NCBI GenBank assembly: GCA_024639515.1
Contig: JAHEIG010000002.1
Span: 1 to 40,113 of the forward strand
Reading direction: 5' to 3'
Length of the DNA stretch: 40,113 nucleotides
From: Rhodobiaceae bacterium
GTDB lineage: Bacteria; Pseudomonadota; Alphaproteobacteria; RS24
Each line of letters begins with the position of its first letter. The first letter of the stretch is position 1. The position numbers were made by a program, and so were the translations under genes. The notes below the pieces were generated by a model that was not told where the DNA came from, did no database searches, and saw only the letters and a list, made by a program, of their open reading frames with translations. Shown here in pieces: positions 22,427 through 31,983 of this stretch.

Positions 22427-23053
22427 GTGTTGCATTCGGAGGGAAGTGATATTTCTGGGTTAAGGTATAAGGCTGCCGCACCAAAAATTCGGCATTGTGT
22501 TTTGTCGCTTGTCATGCTGTCAGCAATCACGCCGGTTTTTGGTTGGGGAATGAAGGACGTTGAGTTACGGACAATTTTCTCTTACCCACTGACAAATAAT
22601 CATCCTTTTGTGAAAACCTACAAAGACCAACCAAATTTTGGAGGCCTGCTGACGGTGATCATTATTGAGGAAAACAAAAACGGCGATGTGTTCGACGCTG
22701 AGACGCTGCAAAAAGTCGGGGACCGGACCCATGGCATTGATTTGGTAACCGGCGTCGACTACGATCAGATTCTTTCTATTGCGGCTGAGAAAGCTCACTA
22801 TTCTGAAGCCTCACCATTTGGCGTCTATAGCCAACCCTTGATTGGCGATCGCCCGCCGGTTACTCAGTCTGAAATTGATGAGCTCCGCCTGCTTATTAAC
22901 AAGGCTCCCAATGCGCGAGCCTTCTTGCTCTCCCAAGACGGCAGTGCGGGGCTCATCAAAACCACCTTTATTGAAAGCCTGGCTGATTATGGCGCTGTGT
23001 TCGATTACGGGCAGCCAATTGTCGAAGCGGCCCATGCGTTGGAAACGACATGA
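22427..23053 (+). pseudogene. N-terminal fragment of an RND/MMPL-superfamily exporter (truncated)
   Basis: N-terminal TM, then IFSYPLTNNHPFVKTYKDQPNFGGLLTVIIIEENKNGDVFDAETLQKVGDRTHGIDLVTGVDYDQILSIAAEKAHY, typical of the first periplasmic loop of predicted RND exporters. The ORF stops before the core TM region. GTG start. Confidence 0.55.
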
Positions 23054-23139: not shown

Positions 23140-23168
23140 TTGACACTAAAATAAGCCATTCATATTCT
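23140..23168 (+). promoter_or_regulatory. Candidate sigma70-like promoter for the SDR-P450-BVMO genes
   Basis: TTGACA (23140-23145), 17-bp spacer, TATTCT (23163-23168), 48 bp before the SDR ATG, which has an AGGAGGGG RBS. Confidence 0.4.
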
Positions 23169-23215: not shown

Positions 23216-24037
23216 ATGAGTTATGATTACAAAAATGCCCATTCGTTGGCCGATAAAAAAGTTATTGTTACAGGCGCTGGCGGCAATCTGGGCGCCGAAA
23301 TTTGTCGCGGTTTGACGGCTATGGGCGCCTCTGTGCTGGCGACCGACATCTCAGCCGATAAAGGCATGGCGCTGGTTGAAGAACTGACTGCAGCCGGTGC
23401 CAACGCCAGTTTCCTGCGACATGATGTGACCAATGAAGAGCAGTGGGAGGCCGTTGTCGCGACCGCCATTGACAAAATGGGTGGCCTCAATGGTGTGGTC
23501 AATAATGCCGCCATCGTGCCGATGCAATATCTCGCTGATCTCGACGTTGAAGAGTTCAAGCAGGTGCAAAATGTCAATGTGGCTGGCTCCATGCTGGGCT
23601 GCAAACACGGTTTCCGCGCTATGCGCCCTGAAGGTAGCGCTGGCGGCGGCGGTTCGATCATCAATATGTCATCGGTGATGGGTCTCGCAGGCACCATTGC
23701 GTTGGCCTCTTACAACTCTTCAAAAGGTGCTGTGCGCTTGCTAACTAAATCGGTGGCGGCAGAGTGTGCCATGCTGAAAACTGGCATCCGCTGCAATTCG
23801 ATCCATCCAGGTATTGTCGAGAGTGAAATGGGTTCATTATTTCATGAGCAACTCGTCGACCTCGGCGTTGCGCCAGACATGGCTGCATCAGAAGCTGGCT
23901 TCTTGGCCGGCGTGCCGATGGGTGAGGCGGCCAATGTGACAGACATCGCCAATGGCGCCATTTATCTGATTTCAGACGCAAGTCGCTACGTGACTGGTAC
24001 CGAACTCGTCATCGATGGCGGCTTCTATGCAACTTAA
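23216..24037 (+). CDS. Short-chain dehydrogenase/reductase
   Basis: VIVTGAGGNLGAEI cofactor loop, NNAAIV, SIINMSSVMG, YNSSK catalytic Tyr/Lys, IHPGIVESEM, ELVIDGGF. Confidence 0.92.
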   Translation: MSYDYKNAHSLADKKVIVTGAGGNLGAEICRGLTAMGASVLATDISADKGMALVEELTAAGANASFLRHDVTNEEQWEAVVATAIDKMGGLNGVVNNAAIVPMQYLADLDVEEFKQVQNVNVAGSMLGCKHGFRAMRPEGSAGGGGSIINMSSVMGLAGTIALASYNSSKGAVRLLTKSVAAECAMLKTGIRCNSIHPGIVESEMGSLFHEQLVDLGVAPDMAASEAGFLAGVPMGEAANVTDIANGAIYLISDASRYVTGTELVIDGGFYAT

Positions 24038-24064: not shown

Positions 24065-25342
24065 ATGTTAGAGATTAATGGTAAAGAATTCATTCCAGAT
24101 GATGATTTAATCATTCAGGGGGACGAGTTTTCGGCATGTGATATTGAGCAGCCGGCAGTAATTCGCAATCCCTTTCCGTATTACGATTTGATGCGTGAAA
24201 AACCAATACAGTATGGTGTGCGGGGCTATCCGCCCGGAACAGTGCAGGGCGTCGATGAACCTATCCCTGCGTGGGGCATTTTTCGCTATGATGATGTCAA
24301 ACAAGTATATGCCGACCATAAGACTTTCTCCTCCCAAGACCGCATGCAAGAGGCCTCAGAAGCGCCTTCCATGATGCTTGTGAACCACGATCAACCTGAG
24401 CACACTTTTTTACGCACAGTGGCGCGTCAAGCATTCTCACCGAAACGCGTCGAGCAGGATGTGGCTCCATGGCTAGCTGAAATTTGCCACCATATGTTGG
24501 AAGCGGAAGGGTCTGGAAACGTCGATTTCATGACTAATCTCGCCGCAGACTTGCCGGCACGTTTTATTGCTAAGTTGCTTGGTACGCCGGCAGATGAGTA
24601 CCGAAAAATTCGTCAGTTTGCTGATGCCTACATGGGAACATCCACTCAGACGACAGAAGAAAAGTTGGCAACGAGTATCGAATTTAATGATTACTTCACC
24701 TATCACGTTGAAGAGCGCTACAAACAAATCGAAGCCGGAACAGCTGAGGATAACCTAATGACAGGGTTTATTGTCGCTGAGGGTGACGACGGTAAAAAAC
24801 TGACGCCTGAAGAGGTGAAAAAGTTTTGCATCACGATGGTTGCTGGTGGGGCTGAGTCCAGTGTTTTTCTGCTCGGCAACCAAGTCGTATCGTTTTTAGA
24901 GATGCCTGAGCTTTATCAAAAAATGCGTGAAAACCGATCTTTGATTCGCCCCTTTCTTGAAGAAAATATTCGCCGCACTGGGCCCATTCAACGCTTGTTC
25001 CGTGAATGTTTGGAAGACACGATGATCGGGGGCCAAGAAATTAAACAGGGTGAGTGGGTTTGTGTGTTTAATGGCTCGGGAAATCACGATCCTAGAATGT
25101 TTAAAAACCCATCAGAGTTTATTATGGACCGTCCAAACGTGGGCAAGAACCTGACCTTTGGTCATGGCATACACCATTGCATTGCAGCCCTGGTTGCTCG
25201 CAATGAAGCAGCAGCCATGATGAATGGTATTTTGGATCGATATAAAGCTGTTGAACCCGGTGACGGAGATGTCATTTTCCAAGACCGCAATTTCATTAAT
25301 TATGGACCCTCGACAGTTCCGGTAAATTTCGTACCGGCATAA
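24065..25342 (+). CDS. Cytochrome P450
   Basis: ExxR in EENIRR, heme loop LTFGHGIHHCIAALVAR, I-helix VAGGAESS, HPEHTFLR-like HDQPEHTFLRTVARQAFSPKRV. RBS AAAGGAGG. Confidence 0.92.
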   Translation: MLEINGKEFIPDDDLIIQGDEFSACDIEQPAVIRNPFPYYDLMREKPIQYGVRGYPPGTVQGVDEPIPAWGIFRYDDVKQVYADHKTFSSQDRMQEASEAPSMMLVNHDQPEHTFLRTVARQAFSPKRVEQDVAPWLAEICHHMLEAEGSGNVDFMTNLAADLPARFIAKLLGTPADEYRKIRQFADAYMGTSTQTTEEKLATSIEFNDYFTYHVEERYKQIEAGTAEDNLMTGFIVAEGDDGKKLTPEEVKKFCITMVAGGAESSVFLLGNQVVSFLEMPELYQKMRENRSLIRPFLEENIRRTGPIQRLFRECLEDTMIGGQEIKQGEWVCVFNGSGNHDPRMFKNPSEFIMDRPNVGKNLTFGHGIHHCIAALVARNEAAAMMNGILDRYKAVEPGDGDVIFQDRNFINYGPSTVPVNFVPA

Positions 25343-25374: not shown

Positions 25375-26985
25375 ATGAGTGATAAAGCAGTAGAACATGT
25401 GGATGTAGTTGTAGTGGGCGCCGGTTTCGCTGGTATTTATGCCGTCTATCGAGCGGGCCAAGACAACCATAGTGTGAAGTGCTTTGAGGCAGGTACCGAA
25501 GTCGGCGGAACGTGGTATTGGAACCGCTATCCCGGTGCGCGCGTTGACATTGAGTGTTTGGAATACTCCTACTCATTCGATGACGAATTGCAGCAAGAAT
25601 GGGAGTGGACGGAACGTTATGCAGGTCAAGATGAGATCCTCAGTTATGCCAAGCATGTCGCCGACAAATACAATTTGCGTGAGCATATGCAGTTTGAGAC
25701 GCGTGTTGTATCGGCCGTTTTTGATGAAGACAGTCAACGTTGGTTGGTGAAAACCAACCGCGGTGACCATGTGTCTGCCAAGTTTTGCTTCATGGCGACT
25801 GGCCTTATCTCAGCGCCGGTCGACCCTGACTTTGAGGGCTTGGACGCCTTCAAAGGTGAGCAGTATATGACCAGCCGTTGGCCGAAGGATGAGATTCAAT
25901 TCGCTGGCAAGCGGGTTGGAGTCATCGGCACCGGCTCCAGTGGTATTCAGGTGATTTCTGAAATCGCTGACAAAGCTGGTGAGCTTTTGGTGTTCCAACG
26001 CACGCCCTCTTATGTCATTCCGCTGCAGAACCACTCGATTGATAAATCGCAGGTGAAGAAAATCAAAGACAAATATGACGAGTTGCGTGATCTCGAAGGC
26101 CAGAGCTTTGGTGGCTTTACCCTAATGCACTCTGATCTGTCGCCATTGCCATCAAAATCGGCCATGGAAGTCAGCGAAGACGAACGTCGCGCTGAATACG
26201 AGGATCGTTGGAAGTCAGGTGGCTTGTCACCTTACTACGCCTATACAGATACGCTGCTCGACGAGGACAGTAATGCGACATTAGCAGACTTTGCCCGAAA
26301 AAAAATCCGCGAGCGTGTGAATGACCCTGTGGTGGCCGAGAAGCTGTCGCCCGATTATCACATTCTGACCCGCCGCTTGTCGCCGGAAACCAACTTCCTT
26401 GAAGCGTTTAACCGCGATAACGTGGATTTGGTGGATCTGAAAGAAAAGCCGATTCAGCGCTTTACTGAAAACGGTATTATTGTCGGCGATGAAGAAATCG
26501 CCCTCGATATCGTCATCTTCGCCACCGGCTTTGACGTGATGACAGGGGCCATGGACCGGATTGACATTCGCGGCCGTGAGTCACAATCGCTGAAGGCACG
26601 TTGGCAAGAAGGTTTGACCAGCTATCTCGGCATGATGACGCGCGGGTTTCCGAACTTTTTCTGGCTCAATGGCCCACATAGTCAGTTCTACAATCCGATT
26701 TTGCTGGCCGAGTTCCAGTGCGATTTGATTTTCGATGCGCTGACTCAAATGGAAGCTGAAGGTAAGAAGTCGCTAGAAGCGACCGACGAAAACGAAAAAG
26801 CCTGGGTCGAACTGACCAATCAGATTGGGAATATGACGTTGTTCCCGAAATCTAACAACTATTACATGGGCGATAATATTCCGGGCAAGCCACGCCAAAC
26901 GGTATTCTTCATGGGCGGGTTCCCCATGTATCGCGAGCAGTGCTTGGCCGCCTTTGATGACCTAGGCGCCTTTGATGTGGTTTAG
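25375..26985 (+). CDS. Flavin-containing monooxygenase, class I Baeyer-Villiger-type
   Basis: GAGFAGIYAVYR, GGTWYWNRYPGARVDIE, FKGEQYMTSRWP (variant fingerprint), GTGSSGIQVISEI, LDIVIFATGFD. Confidence 0.9.
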   Translation: MSDKAVEHVDVVVVGAGFAGIYAVYRAGQDNHSVKCFEAGTEVGGTWYWNRYPGARVDIECLEYSYSFDDELQQEWEWTERYAGQDEILSYAKHVADKYNLREHMQFETRVVSAVFDEDSQRWLVKTNRGDHVSAKFCFMATGLISAPVDPDFEGLDAFKGEQYMTSRWPKDEIQFAGKRVGVIGTGSSGIQVISEIADKAGELLVFQRTPSYVIPLQNHSIDKSQVKKIKDKYDELRDLEGQSFGGFTLMHSDLSPLPSKSAMEVSEDERRAEYEDRWKSGGLSPYYAYTDTLLDEDSNATLADFARKKIRERVNDPVVAEKLSPDYHILTRRLSPETNFLEAFNRDNVDLVDLKEKPIQRFTENGIIVGDEEIALDIVIFATGFDVMTGAMDRIDIRGRESQSLKARWQEGLTSYLGMMTRGFPNFFWLNGPHSQFYNPILLAEFQCDLIFDALTQMEAEGKKSLEATDENEKAWVELTNQIGNMTLFPKSNNYYMGDNIPGKPRQTVFFMGGFPMYREQCLAAFDDLGAFDVV

Positions 26986-27021: not shown

Positions 27022-27477
27022 ATGAGCGATAAGGAACTGAAAAGTAGCTGGTTGTGCAGCATTGACATTGAGTTTGATGCGCCAACCGTTGCGACCACCT
27101 CATTAGTTGTCATTAATGTCAGCAAAATGAACTTGGAAGGCCCACGTTTGAAAGCCAAAGGCATTATGCCTTCTGGTGACTGGGCGCAAATTCAGGACAA
27201 TGGCAATTGGAAGGTTGACGCCCGTCTGGCTTTTGAGACAGATGATGGCGAGACAATTTATTGCTATTATCAAGGCGTTGTTAGGATGACTGAAGAACTG
27301 AATGAGCGCTTTGCCAATGGCGAAACGCTGACCAGTGACGACATCTATATTGCCACCTCGCCAAACTTCTGGACGGCGTCTGAGAAATATGCGTGGGTCA
27401 ATGACATCATCTCTGTTGGTCGAGCGGCCAGTTTTGGTGGCGGTAAATTGACATACGATTTATACGAAATACTGTAA
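27022..27477 (+). CDS. DUF3237-like protein
   Basis: GPRLKAKGIMPSGDWAQIQDNGNWKVDARLAFETDDGETIYCYYQGVVR...YIATSPNFWTASEKYAWVNDIISVG matches my recollection of the DUF3237 pattern. RBS CAGGAG. Confidence 0.7.
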   Translation: MSDKELKSSWLCSIDIEFDAPTVATTSLVVINVSKMNLEGPRLKAKGIMPSGDWAQIQDNGNWKVDARLAFETDDGETIYCYYQGVVRMTEELNERFANGETLTSDDIYIATSPNFWTASEKYAWVNDIISVGRAASFGGGKLTYDLYEIL

Positions 27478-27550: not shown

Positions 27551-27865
27551 ATGAAAATCCATGTCACAGACCGTGATGGTAACGAACACACAGTCGAAGG
27601 CCAAGCTGGAGACAATCTGATGCTACCTCTGCATGCCGCCGACTTGGTAGAGGCAACTTGTAGCGGGTCATGCTCTTGCGCAACCTGCCACGTTTTTGTC
27701 GATGCAGCTTGTTTGGACAAATTAGCCCCAGCCGAAGCGACTGAAATTGACATGCTGGACTTTATCATGCTGGCGCAATCAGACAGCCGCTTGGCTTGTC
27801 AGGTGCATTTGACGGAAGACACACCTGATCTGAGGGTAACGATTGCCCCTGAAGAGGGCTTCTAA
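27551..27865 (+). CDS. [2Fe-2S] ferredoxin, adrenodoxin/putidaredoxin type
   Basis: EATCSGSCSCATCHVFVD (C-x5-C-x2-C) plus distal RLACQVHL cysteine. Confidence 0.92.
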   Translation: MKIHVTDRDGNEHTVEGQAGDNLMLPLHAADLVEATCSGSCSCATCHVFVDAACLDKLAPAEATEIDMLDFIMLAQSDSRLACQVHLTEDTPDLRVTIAPEEGF

Positions 27866-27887: not shown

Positions 27888-29072
27888 TCATTTGATCATA
27901 TTAAATGGTTCCATGTCACGGAACGGGCCCGGATATTTCTTGAAGATTTCATGCGTTCGTTTGAAGATGTAGACAACCATGTCGATTTCTTCCTGGCTTA
28001 ATTGCTCAATCACTTGCTGTAGGAAATGCTCGCCATTATCGAGCATTTCATCAATCGTCGCCTGGCCTTTGCGTGTCAATCGGATGATTTTTTCGCGCCC
28101 TGATTCTGGATGCTCGGTAATCGTCAGCAGATTAAGCGGCGCATCGGTTAGCGAGCGGATGGCCTTCGACACGGATGAGCTGGTAATCTCCAGCCAATTT
28201 TGCAGCGTGCGCTCAATCAATTTGCGCGACATTTGCTGGCCATCAATGCCTTGAGCCGCAATCGTCCATAGAATGATCACCTGCTGGCGGTTCAGCGATG
28301 CGGCACTGCGCAAGGCCGCCTCAACGCGGTTGCCGGCCTTATAGTGGATGGGGAAAAAGATATTCAAATGCATTAGCGGCGCATATTCGCGCGGGATATG
28401 CGGCAACTCGCCCCAATCGTAACTGCGATCAAGAAACTTATCGGCTAGCGGGTGCTGCAAAAATGCATCCGGGGTTACGCTTTCTTGCATTAATTCGCCT
28501 CGATCGCGGCGTTCGGCGTCAATCAGTCCGCTAAACAGCGCGTTGACTTTCGAATAAATATATAAAGACACATCCGGCTCGCCATCCCAACGGGCCATAT
28601 TATCGAGAAACCAAGCACACATAGATGAGCCGTTTTGCACCATGGCATGCACGAACTCTTCGCCGCGCGGGGTTAAAGAGACCAGTTTCTCGCGCGCCGA
28701 TTGGGGGTGTTCCTGAATAGTAATCAGACCCAGTGGCGGTTTAGCAATGGCCCGGATGGCTTTAGAAATCGCGCTGCTGCTAATGTCATACCAGCCGGTC
28801 ATGACGTTCTCGATATATTTGCGGCGCATCGAACGCCCGTTTATGCCTTCTGAGCGGATGGTCCAAAGCACAGCCACTTGATGACGATTAAGCGTGTCGA
28901 AGGTACGAAGCGTATCATTCACCTTCATGCCCACAATAAAGTGGATGCGGAAGAAAAGATTGAGCAGCGTGCGGGCAGCCTCATCGCGTGGGCAAGGTGA
29001 GATGTCGACACTGGCTATCGTATAATTCTTGGACAAGGCTTTAGATTCCTTCTGAGACTTGGGTCTAAACAT
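27888..29072 (-). CDS. Tandem-duplicated MarR-type winged-helix regulator
   Basis: Two related halves: NRHQVAVLWTIRSEGINGRSM...ISSSAISKAIRAIAKPPLGLITIQEHPQSAREKLVSLTPRGEEF and NRQQVIILWTIAAQGIDGQQM...ITSSSVSKAIRSLTDAPLNLLTITEHPESGREKIIRLTRKGQAT. Confidence 0.85.
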   Translation of the reverse strand: MFRPKSQKESKALSKNYTIASVDISPCPRDEAARTLLNLFFRIHFIVGMKVNDTLRTFDTLNRHQVAVLWTIRSEGINGRSMRRKYIENVMTGWYDISSSAISKAIRAIAKPPLGLITIQEHPQSAREKLVSLTPRGEEFVHAMVQNGSSMCAWFLDNMARWDGEPDVSLYIYSKVNALFSGLIDAERRDRGELMQESVTPDAFLQHPLADKFLDRSYDWGELPHIPREYAPLMHLNIFFPIHYKAGNRVEAALRSAASLNRQQVIILWTIAAQGIDGQQMSRKLIERTLQNWLEITSSSVSKAIRSLTDAPLNLLTITEHPESGREKIIRLTRKGQATIDEMLDNGEHFLQQVIEQLSQEEIDMVVYIFKRTHEIFKKYPGPFRDMEPFNMIK

Positions 29073-29462
29073 ATCGAGCGCCGTTTTCTATATCAAGTAT
29101 ACATATCTGTTTCCAAATAATAAGGTTTCTGAGAGACATAAATGGCTTATTTTGCCAAAATCGATGGAGACCCGTGGAATTGTTACCGACGCGGCGATAT
29201 TTTCCGCTCCTTTGGAGGTGCCTTCTCGCTATAGGACAAAGACGGTAAGCAATTTATGGATCGAAAACACTTTTATTGGTCATGACGCACCTGAATGCGC
29301 ATAATGTGCAAACCAATCAGGTAACACGCATAGAGCAACTGCGGCAAGTGGTCGGCGGATAACGGACAACAGTCAATGAGCAAAACCTCTATGACCGCTT
29401 CCTGACCCGCACGGCACTGCCGCGCCTTGGTAGTTAGATGTCTGATTTAGACGTTTTGGCAG

Positions 29463-30269
29463 TTAGGTCAGTTTTGCACCGGCAAAGCCGACTAGCTCAG
29501 CATTGTATTTATCGGTTTCTTCCCAGAACGGCGTGTGGCCGGAGTTCTCCATCTCGACGGTGACCGTATCGGCGTGGTATTCTTGCACCGAACGCGCCGT
29601 ATTTGGGTCAACCAAGGCATCTTGTGATCCGACAATTGCTAAAACTGGTTGCGTCAAAGCAGACAAAACATCCCTCTGGTCCAGCGTCAATAATTGCTCG
29701 AGCGATGCCGTGGCGGCGGGATCCGACTGACTAAACAACACAGTCATGGCATCCAATTGTTCTTGTGATGGATCAGCAAAACAAGCCAGTGACAGATTAG
29801 GCAGGGTTTCGGCGCGGGCGGTTTTGATGGCCCCTATGATGCCTGCGAATTCTTCCGCATTTTGACCATGCGGGAAGCCATCTTGCGGCACCATGGTTGG
29901 TGTAGCGGCGCAAGTCAACGCCACACCGGCGCAGACATCTTGCAGAGTATTAGCTGCTTCAACAGCCACAGCGCCGCCTATAGACCAGCCACTCAGCACG
30001 ACTTTTTTCAAGCCAAGCTCATGCGCCAACGCCACCACATCTGAGGCGATGCTCTCAATGCTGATGTCGTCGAAATTGGCGTCTGATTGACCACAGGCAC
30101 GGTGGTCAAAAGCCACGACGCGATGACCAGCAGCGGTGAGCGCAGGCACAGTCTGGTCCCAGACGCGCAAATTAACACCCCACCCATGGATTAGTACCAC
30201 TGCAGAGTCGCCTGATCCGCTATCCTCATAATAGATTTTGCTGCCGTTCTCGCGTGTCAAATGGCTCAT
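29463..30269 (-). CDS. Alpha/beta-fold hydrolase
   Basis: VVLIHGWGVNLRVWDQ, VVAFDHRACGQSD, nucleophile elbow GWSIGG, catalytic Asp/His regions GSQDALVD and SGHTPFWEE. Confidence 0.9.
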   Translation of the reverse strand: MSHLTRENGSKIYYEDSGSGDSAVVLIHGWGVNLRVWDQTVPALTAAGHRVVAFDHRACGQSDANFDDISIESIASDVVALAHELGLKKVVLSGWSIGGAVAVEAANTLQDVCAGVALTCAATPTMVPQDGFPHGQNAEEFAGIIGAIKTARAETLPNLSLACFADPSQEQLDAMTVLFSQSDPAATASLEQLLTLDQRDVLSALTQPVLAIVGSQDALVDPNTARSVQEYHADTVTVEMENSGHTPFWEETDKYNAELVGFAGAKLT

Positions 30270-30441
30270 GATGTCCTCCATAGGTGGCCGCTCACGACCA
30301 AATTTTTGCTACATTGCTTTTAAACAATAATATGATATGTAAAAGGTGTCAAAAAGACATTATATAATTTAGGTGGTATTTTTGGCGCCCATTCCTCCGC
30401 TTCTCACGGGCGGTGGGCGCGCTTGTTATTTGGGGGTTAGC

Positions 30442-31983
30442 GTGAACGGTTACGAAGTCAATTTCGGTATGGGTCAGATCATTCTTGAGAGGGCTCACTT
30501 GAATCCTTCGAATACAGCCCTCACTTTCAAAGAGCAAAGTACAGATTACGCAGCGTTTGCCGAGCGTATCCGTCGCGTGGCGAACGTGTTGCGCGGCAAG
30601 GGCATTAGCCGTGGTGACCGTGTCGGGCTGATTTCGCACAACCATCCAAGTTTTTTGGAAGTGCTTTATGCGTGCTCGTGTCTCGGGGCGATTTTTGTGC
30701 CGCTGAACTTCCGTTTGGCCTCTGCTGAGGTGGCGTTCATTGCCAAAGATGCCGGCGTCAAAGTGATTTTTGCCGACGATAATTGCTTACCGCTGATTGA
30801 AGCTGAGCGCGCGCAGCTGGCGTGCACTGATTTTATAGCCACCCAAACAGCGTCGGATAATTGGCAGCCTTATGACGGGCTGGTGGAGAACGCCGAGCCG
30901 CTTCAAACGGTGGAGCACATGCAAGCCGATGATGTGGCACTGATTATGTACACATCCGGGACCACCGGTTTGCCGAAGGGCGCCATGCTGACGCATGGCA
31001 ATGTGTTTTGGAACGCGCTGAATGTCGCGTTTATGGGCCTGCGCATGCGCGGTGCCACCCTAACTTGTGCGCCGCTGTTTCATATTGGTGGGCTTAATGT
31101 GACCACTCATATTTCGCTGTCTTTCGGCGTCGAAGTGGTGCTGCATGAGAGCTTTGAGGCCGGTGCGGTGCTGGCCGATATTGAACGGTACAAAGTCTCG
31201 ACCATGTTCGGCGCGCCGACTATGTTCTTGATGATGGCGCAGCATGACAATTTCGCGGCGGCCGATTTGAGCAGTATTATTTCTTTCAATGTCGGCTCGG
31301 CCCCTGTTCCTTTGTCGTTGCTGGAAGTCTATCACGGGCGCGGCATCCAAATGGAGCAGGGCTATGGCCTGACCGAAACCTCGCCTTATGTCAGCGTGCT
31401 TGGAGCTGAATTTGCCCTGAGTAAGCTGGGCTCGGCCGGCAATGGTTTGAGCTTTACTTCAATACGCATTGTCGATGAGGCCAATCAACCAGTCGCCATA
31501 GGCGAGCGCGGCGAGATTTGCATCAAAGGCCCGAACGTCATGCGCGGTTATTGGAATCGCCCCGATGCGACGGCAGCGGCGATTGATAAAGAGGGCTGGT
31601 TCCATAGTGGTGACATTGGCTATTTCGACGAGGACGGTTTCTTGTTCATTTGCGACCGCTTGAAAGACATGATAATTAGTGGCGGCGAGAATATTTTCCC
31701 CATCGAAGTGGAAAGCGTCATCCTCACGCATGCGGCGGTTAGCGAAGTGGCGGTGATCGGAATCCCTGACGATAAGTGGGGCGAGGCGGTGCTCGCGATT
31801 ATCGTGCCGCGTGATGGCGCCAGCGTGACCGATGATGAGATTCTCGACCATTGCCGCCCCCAAATCGCTAAATATAAATTGCCCCGTGCAATTACCATTC
31901 GCAGCGAGCCTTTGCCGCTGTCAGGTGCTGGCAAAGTGCTGAAACGCAAATTGCGTACCCCTTATTGGGAAGGCGTGCGCTAA
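30442..31983 (+). CDS. Acyl-CoA synthetase / AMP-dependent ligase
   Basis: MYTSGTTGLPKGAMLTHGN, QGYGLTETSPYV, GWFHSGDIGYFDEDGFLFICDRLKDMIISGGENIFPIEVE. GTG start at 30442 proposed after GGGGGTTAGC. Confidence 0.92.
   Translation: MNGYEVNFGMGQIILERAHLNPSNTALTFKEQSTDYAAFAERIRRVANVLRGKGISRGDRVGLISHNHPSFLEVLYACSCLGAIFVPLNFRLASAEVAFIAKDAGVKVIFADDNCLPLIEAERAQLACTDFIATQTASDNWQPYDGLVENAEPLQTVEHMQADDVALIMYTSGTTGLPKGAMLTHGNVFWNALNVAFMGLRMRGATLTCAPLFHIGGLNVTTHISLSFGVEVVLHESFEAGAVLADIERYKVSTMFGAPTMFLMMAQHDNFAAADLSSIISFNVGSAPVPLSLLEVYHGRGIQMEQGYGLTETSPYVSVLGAEFALSKLGSAGNGLSFTSIRIVDEANQPVAIGERGEICIKGPNVMRGYWNRPDATAAAIDKEGWFHSGDIGYFDEDGFLFICDRLKDMIISGGENIFPIEVESVILTHAAVSEVAVIGIPDDKWGEAVLAIIVPRDGASVTDDEILDHCRPQIAKYKLPRAITIRSEPLPLSGAGKVLKRKLRTPYWEGVR

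Follow-up and report, generated by a model that had tools for sequence, protein, structure and literature searches.

We identified, in a 40,113-nucleotide stretch of DNA from a Rhodobiaceae bacterium (hereafter the window), a gene encoding a type I BVMO homologue in which the His of the fingerprint motif is replaced by Met. The replacement is genuine and is conserved throughout the clade to which the protein belongs. Sequence comparisons, a predicted structure and the analogy of a characterised enzyme together argue, with a probability of about 0.8, for a functional type I BVMO with a naturally replaced fingerprint His, which would carry out the standard catalytic cycle on a ketone made by a neighboring cytochrome P450 and SDR dehydrogenase. 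We have filed the protein as a variant type I BVMO homologue, which most likely functions as such an enzyme does. Apart from the clade-shared His-to-Met change, the evidence from this marine bacterium points to an ordinary BVMO in a gene set for the breakdown of ring compounds.

The variant fingerprint and the integrity of the enzyme

The open reading frame, which was read directly, specifies a protein of 536 amino acids with the following features.

25375-26985, +, type I BVMO homologue carrying Met165 (open reading frame; STMO and PAMO at E 2e-153 to 2e-148; AlphaFold pLDDT 88.7)
25417-25440, +, first Rossmann motif GAGFAGIY, residues 15-22 (translation, conserved in alignment)
25498-25548, +, first BVMO motif with its flanks, EVGGTWYWNRYPGARVD, residues 42-58, the last being Asp (PAMO D66) (alignment, invariant GG-W-YP-D columns)
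25849-25884, +, variant fingerprint FKGEQYMTSRWP (translation; aligned to PAMO H173)
25924-25950, +, second Rossmann motif IGTGSSGIQ, residues 184-192 (translation, conserved in alignment)
26365-26379, +, LTRRL, residues 331-335, with the catalytic Arg R334 corresponding to PAMO R337 (column analysis, alignment)

Direct translation places the motif F-K-G-E-Q-Y-M-T-S-R-W-P (DNA TTCAAAGGTGAGCAGTATATGACCAGCCGTTGGCCG) 12 bases downstream of the position given in the initial annotation (25837-25872), with the Met codon ATG at 25867-25869 as residue 165. Aligned with PAMO and STMO, the protein shows no gap across the motif, and Met165 falls on the column of PAMO His173, which bears out the Met-bearing fingerprint described there; two further segments quoted in that annotation, GGTWYWNRYPGAR and GVIGTGSSGIQV, are both found in the protein. 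Relative to the strict form FxGxxxHxxxW[P/D], the F, G, W and P are retained and the His is replaced by Met, so that the strict pattern taken alone would leave the protein out of the type I BVMOs. The motif ends in W-P, as in BVMOs, and lacks the ending of the FMO pattern FxGxxxHxxx[Y/F][K/R]. In the AlphaFold model a short strand (residues 162-165) ends in Met165.

The two GxGxx[G/A] Rossmann motifs (GAGFAG, residues 15-20, and GTGSSG, residues 185-190) flank the fingerprints as is required of type I BVMOs. The [A/G]GxWxxxx[F/Y]P[G/M]xxxD motif is present as GGTWYWNRYPGARVD at residues 44-58, and in the aligned columns the catalytic Arg and Asp (PAMO R337 and D66) are both retained. STMO and PAMO are the closest solved relatives. 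The AlphaFold model, built with 26 sequences (pTM 0.87), finds its best Foldseek matches among PAMO structures and superimposes on NADP-bound PAMO with a TM-score of 0.95 over 535 columns, a predicted two-domain FAD/NADPH fold of the type I BVMO kind. In two trees from which the fingerprint columns were left out, and all rows of which came from searches seeded with the protein, it falls within the type I BVMO homologues. The assignment to the BVMOs made from the window alone is supported, the protein being a type I BVMO homologue of class B. In NCBIfam no equivalog scored above its cut-off for this protein, the best being NF045818 (268 bits versus 1100).

The gene is under strong purifying selection. 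Two PS1 homologues (L009 and L012) differ by a dN of 0.019 and a dS of 0.41, for a dN/dS of about 0.05. Between the window gene and its PS1 homologues pN is 0.09 and pS about 0.72 (0.088 and 0.73 for L009), with synonymous sites near saturation in the wider comparisons.

Distribution of the fingerprint residue

A scan of genome contigs and whole-genome searches yielded 149 distinct homologues, and PAMO and STMO joined them as anchor sequences. The fingerprint column has a residue in 150 rows, with His in 129, Gln in eight, Met in five, Ile and Asn in two each, and Leu, Glu, Ser and Phe in one each; the sampling was seeded by the window protein, and these counts are not population frequencies. 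One homologue (L013) ends short of the motif and offers no residue to score. The lone Ser occurs in Amycolatopsis circi (L083, FEGETYSTARWP) and the lone Phe in L109 (FKGGSCFSGRWP).

Besides the window protein, Met is carried by two PS1/Rhodobiaceae homologues (L009 and L012, 84% identical to it), by HTCC2207 of SAR92 (L010, 72% identity) and by another genome of the family of HTCC2207 (L147, 73% identity), so that it is kept in relatives from both PS1-clade Alphaproteobacteria and SAR92/Porticoccaceae Gammaproteobacteria. In HTCC2207 the first Phe of the fingerprint is also replaced, by Tyr. A homologue binned as Akkermansiaceae (L011, 62% identity) has Leu, encoded by TTG, in place of the His; its contig is only 4 kb long and the binning is uncertain. 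With the fingerprint columns left out of the tree, all of whose rows come from searches seeded with the window protein, the window protein, the five relatives just named and L013 form one clade with 100/100 support, adjoining His-bearing BVMOs. Conservation of the His-to-Met change across a clade, which the initial annotation had raised as a point to check, is therefore found.

The largest other non-His group consists of proteins of about 850 amino acids with an N-terminal Abhydrolase_3 domain and Gln, Asn or Ile at this position (L091, L095-L100, L103, L105, L134 and L139, plus L002). L002 is the BVMO part of such a fusion in the source genome itself (contig C23, 28609-30192), where it is cut by the contig end. 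The group represents a second independent loss of the fingerprint His, and its hydrolase domain could open the lactone produced by the BVMO domain. The trees require four to five changes between His and non-His residues, three of which are forced by well supported branches. This indicates that loss of the His is recurrent, having occurred about four to five times among these homologues. In genome mining, pipelines let FxGxxxHxxxW[P/D] decide whether a sequence is a type I BVMO, and because the His has been lost in several independent lineages, strict motif screens miss members of the family. The Met/Leu and Gln/Asn/Ile lineages, both present in the source genome, are natural test cases of the need for the His in motion of the FAD and NADPH domains.

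The scan of viral contigs revealed no relatives, and plasmid records contained many BVMO homologues, none of them at 60% identity or above. No further clade member came from a sample of 399 genomes of the phylum or from 145 genomes of the family of the Akkermansiaceae-binned relative. Two genomes of the same genus (99-100% complete) gave no BVMO match at E 1e-100, which makes the gene an accessory one in this lineage.

The surrounding gene cluster

The BVMO gene is accompanied by the following genes.

23216-24037, +, SDR dehydrogenase, predicted alcohol-to-ketone step (PF13561/PF00106; syntenic in PS1 and SAR92, 70-85% identity)
24065-25342, +, cytochrome P450, predicted hydroxylation (PF00067; syntenic, 67-95% identity)
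27022-27477, +, DUF3237 protein (PF11578; synteny shared by SAR92, by Porticoccaceae and by the contig binned as Akkermansiaceae)
27551-27865, +, 2Fe-2S ferredoxin, predicted P450 electron donor (PF00111; alignment of homologues begins with the ATG at 27551)
27888-29072, -, tandem MarR/winged-helix regulator (PF13463, two stretches; syntenic, 62-69% identity)
29463-30281, -, alpha/beta hydrolase (BioH/PcaD-like), candidate lactone hydrolase (PF00561; beside the cluster in SAR92)
30373-31983, +, acyl-CoA ligase, predicted to activate the acid left by ring opening (PF00501; NF004837 above cut-off)

The order SDR-P450-BVMO-(DUF3237)-ferredoxin-MarR is conserved between the alphaproteobacterial and gammaproteobacterial loci. 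The hydrolase, which matches TIGR01738 and TIGR02427 below their cut-offs, and the ligase also occur near the SDR-P450-BVMO cluster in SAR92 genomes, where they again adjoin each other (60-63% identity). The SAR92 cluster additionally includes a ferredoxin reductase (Pyr_redox_2/Reductase_C), two DUF1329 proteins, a DUF1302 protein, a YCF48-like protein and an MMPL transporter. At the PS1 locus (L009/L160), no nearby homologue of the DUF3237 protein, the hydrolase or the ligase was found.

This gene set suggests the catabolism of a hydrophobic alicyclic compound; we infer the activities of the cluster enzymes, their substrate class and the order of their reactions. The P450, supplied by the ferredoxin, would introduce a hydroxyl group into a hydrophobic ring compound, and the SDR would oxidise the product to a ketone. 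The BVMO would convert the ketone to a lactone, the alpha/beta hydrolase would open the lactone to a hydroxy acid, and the acyl-CoA ligase would form the CoA ester for beta-oxidation. Within the BVMO, NADPH would reduce the FAD, and O2 would then give a C4a-peroxyflavin. The retained Arg and Asp would hold this intermediate, which would insert oxygen beside the carbonyl of the alicyclic ketone. The residues that bear this chemistry are retained, and the change falls on a linker residue with a proposed part in domain motion.

The closest solved P450 to that of the cluster is 9lw0, which is named only Cytochrome P450 and so offers no link to terpenes; a literature search found no publication on this structure. 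In the cluster P450 the I-helix region reads AGGAESS and the heme cysteine stands in HHCIA, with Ala for the usual Gly, and both are kept in the PS1, SAR92 and L011 copies. A promoter-like TTGACA-17-TATTCT lies at 23140-23168 (+), some 50 bases before the SDR gene begins; promoter and terminator scans gave sites no more numerous than in shuffled sequences. Two remnants of decayed genes lie in the neighborhood. One (22427-23053) corresponds to about the first 190 residues of a 793-amino-acid MMPL/RND-type transporter, of which L160 has an intact copy next to its cluster. The other (29187-29434, +) is the C-terminal part of a DUF1329 protein, interrupted by stops and a change of frame, of which an intact copy occupies the matching place in the SAR92 cluster (L158, 14071-15447).

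Alternative readings and known systems

A working type I BVMO is favored by the nesting in both trees, the intact motifs, the catalytic Arg and Asp, the model, the purifying selection, the synteny and the activity of a natural H173Q enzyme. This enzyme, BVMOAf1 of Aspergillus fumigatus, is active, stereoselective and strictly NADPH-dependent (PMC3762062). With Gln at this position, it shows that activity does not depend on the strict fingerprint. Rhodococcal BVMOs with imperfect motifs are among those cited in the same paper. The fingerprint has been described as part of the linker between the FAD and NADPH domains rather than strictly of the active site, and the 2022 study that terms it a super-hallmark of type I BVMOs also remarks that it can be degenerate (PMC9044951). 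Mascotti and colleagues curated BVMOs in 2015 by the presence of this motif and kept only sequences bearing it (PMC4498894), so variants like the window protein would be left out there. Counted against a working enzyme are the impaired His mutants, with lowered efficiency in CHMO and inactivity in HAPMO, as cited in PMC3762062, and the inability of Met, unlike Gln, to form a hydrogen bond. The damage to CHMO and HAPMO is, however, that seen in enzymes that evolved with the His.

Also counted against it are five other changes that accompany H173M/L at near-invariant sites in the clade: S69C (absent only from L011), K336R, which places Arg at the residue preceding the catalytic Arg, A391V, S500N and W501Y (PAMO numbering, raised by two above 440, as the PAMO chain used appears to lack two residues, judging by W501 at index 499). 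Work on a characterised fungal BVMO has linked Lys336 and a mobile loop with the conserved Trp to the binding of NADPH (PMC4966971). W501, S500 and K336 lie within elements of the mobile loop and of NADPH binding. The enzyme could therefore handle its cofactor differently, and K336R, W501Y and the accompanying changes are the best hint that it does. W501Y, S500N, K336R and A391V may make up for the Met, or they may alter how the cofactor is retained and how tightly turnover is coupled. One proposal, which we regard as unlikely, is that the marine clade has rebuilt its linker and NADP-binding network (H173M/L with W501Y, S500N, K336R and A391V) to allow domain motion without the fingerprint His, altering cofactor retention, coupling or the type of reaction. 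Quite unlikely, in our estimate, is an enzyme functionally shifted by the Met with W501Y, S500N and K336R, through altered domain motion, weak retention of NADP+, high uncoupling (NADPH oxidase-like) or oxygenation of something other than a ketone. The co-occurring changes and the His mutants speak for such a shift; the intact Arg and Asp, the ketone substrate predicted from the operon, the natural H173Q enzyme and the many residues accepted at the His column across the family speak against it. A strict linkage of W501Y to H173M is weakened by L046, which combines Tyr501 with His173. On these grounds the type I BVMO homologue and clade-wide Met of the initial annotation stand, whereas the divergent functional class or altered oxygenase/oxidase that it envisaged is not supported, although a new functional class is possible.

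Decay of the BVMO gene, with Met as one step toward loss of function, could be imagined beside the transporter and DUF1329 remnants, but it is very improbable and is contradicted by the dN/dS and by clade-wide conservation; the intact 536-codon frame also speaks against it, as does the recurrence of this Met in distant genomes whose clusters are intact. Sequencing or assembly error, a private variant and a one-residue misalignment were tested and rejected as having a negligible chance despite the fragmented assembly (136 contigs): ATG differs from the His codons CAT and CAC at all three bases, which excludes a simple error, Met recurs in four other homologues, including HTCC2207, that differ in the synonymous codons around it, and no realignment gives back the His.

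The functional type I BVMO favored here resembles PAMO and STMO in fold (TM 0.92-0.95), in sequence (about 45% identity), and in both Rossmann motifs, the first BVMO motif, and the Arg and Asp. It differs from them in having Met for H173, Tyr for W501, Asn for S500, Arg for K336, Val for A391 and Cys for S69, and its active-site bulge is two residues shorter than in most relatives (GPHSQ--FYNP). BVMOAf1 shares a naturally replaced fingerprint His; however, it has Gln rather than Met, is fungal, is fused to another domain and has a modest kcat of 0.5 per s. The PS1-group fusions and their relatives (L095, L103 and L134) are likewise type I BVMO homologues without the His, but they have Gln, Asn or Ile, are about 850 amino acids long with an Abhydrolase_3 N-terminus and occupy a separate branch of the tree. 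The terpenoids camphor and cineole are catabolised through P450/dehydrogenase/BVMO pathways, and the window cluster would resemble these in the order of its chemistry, from hydroxylation through ketone formation and Baeyer-Villiger oxidation to ring opening.
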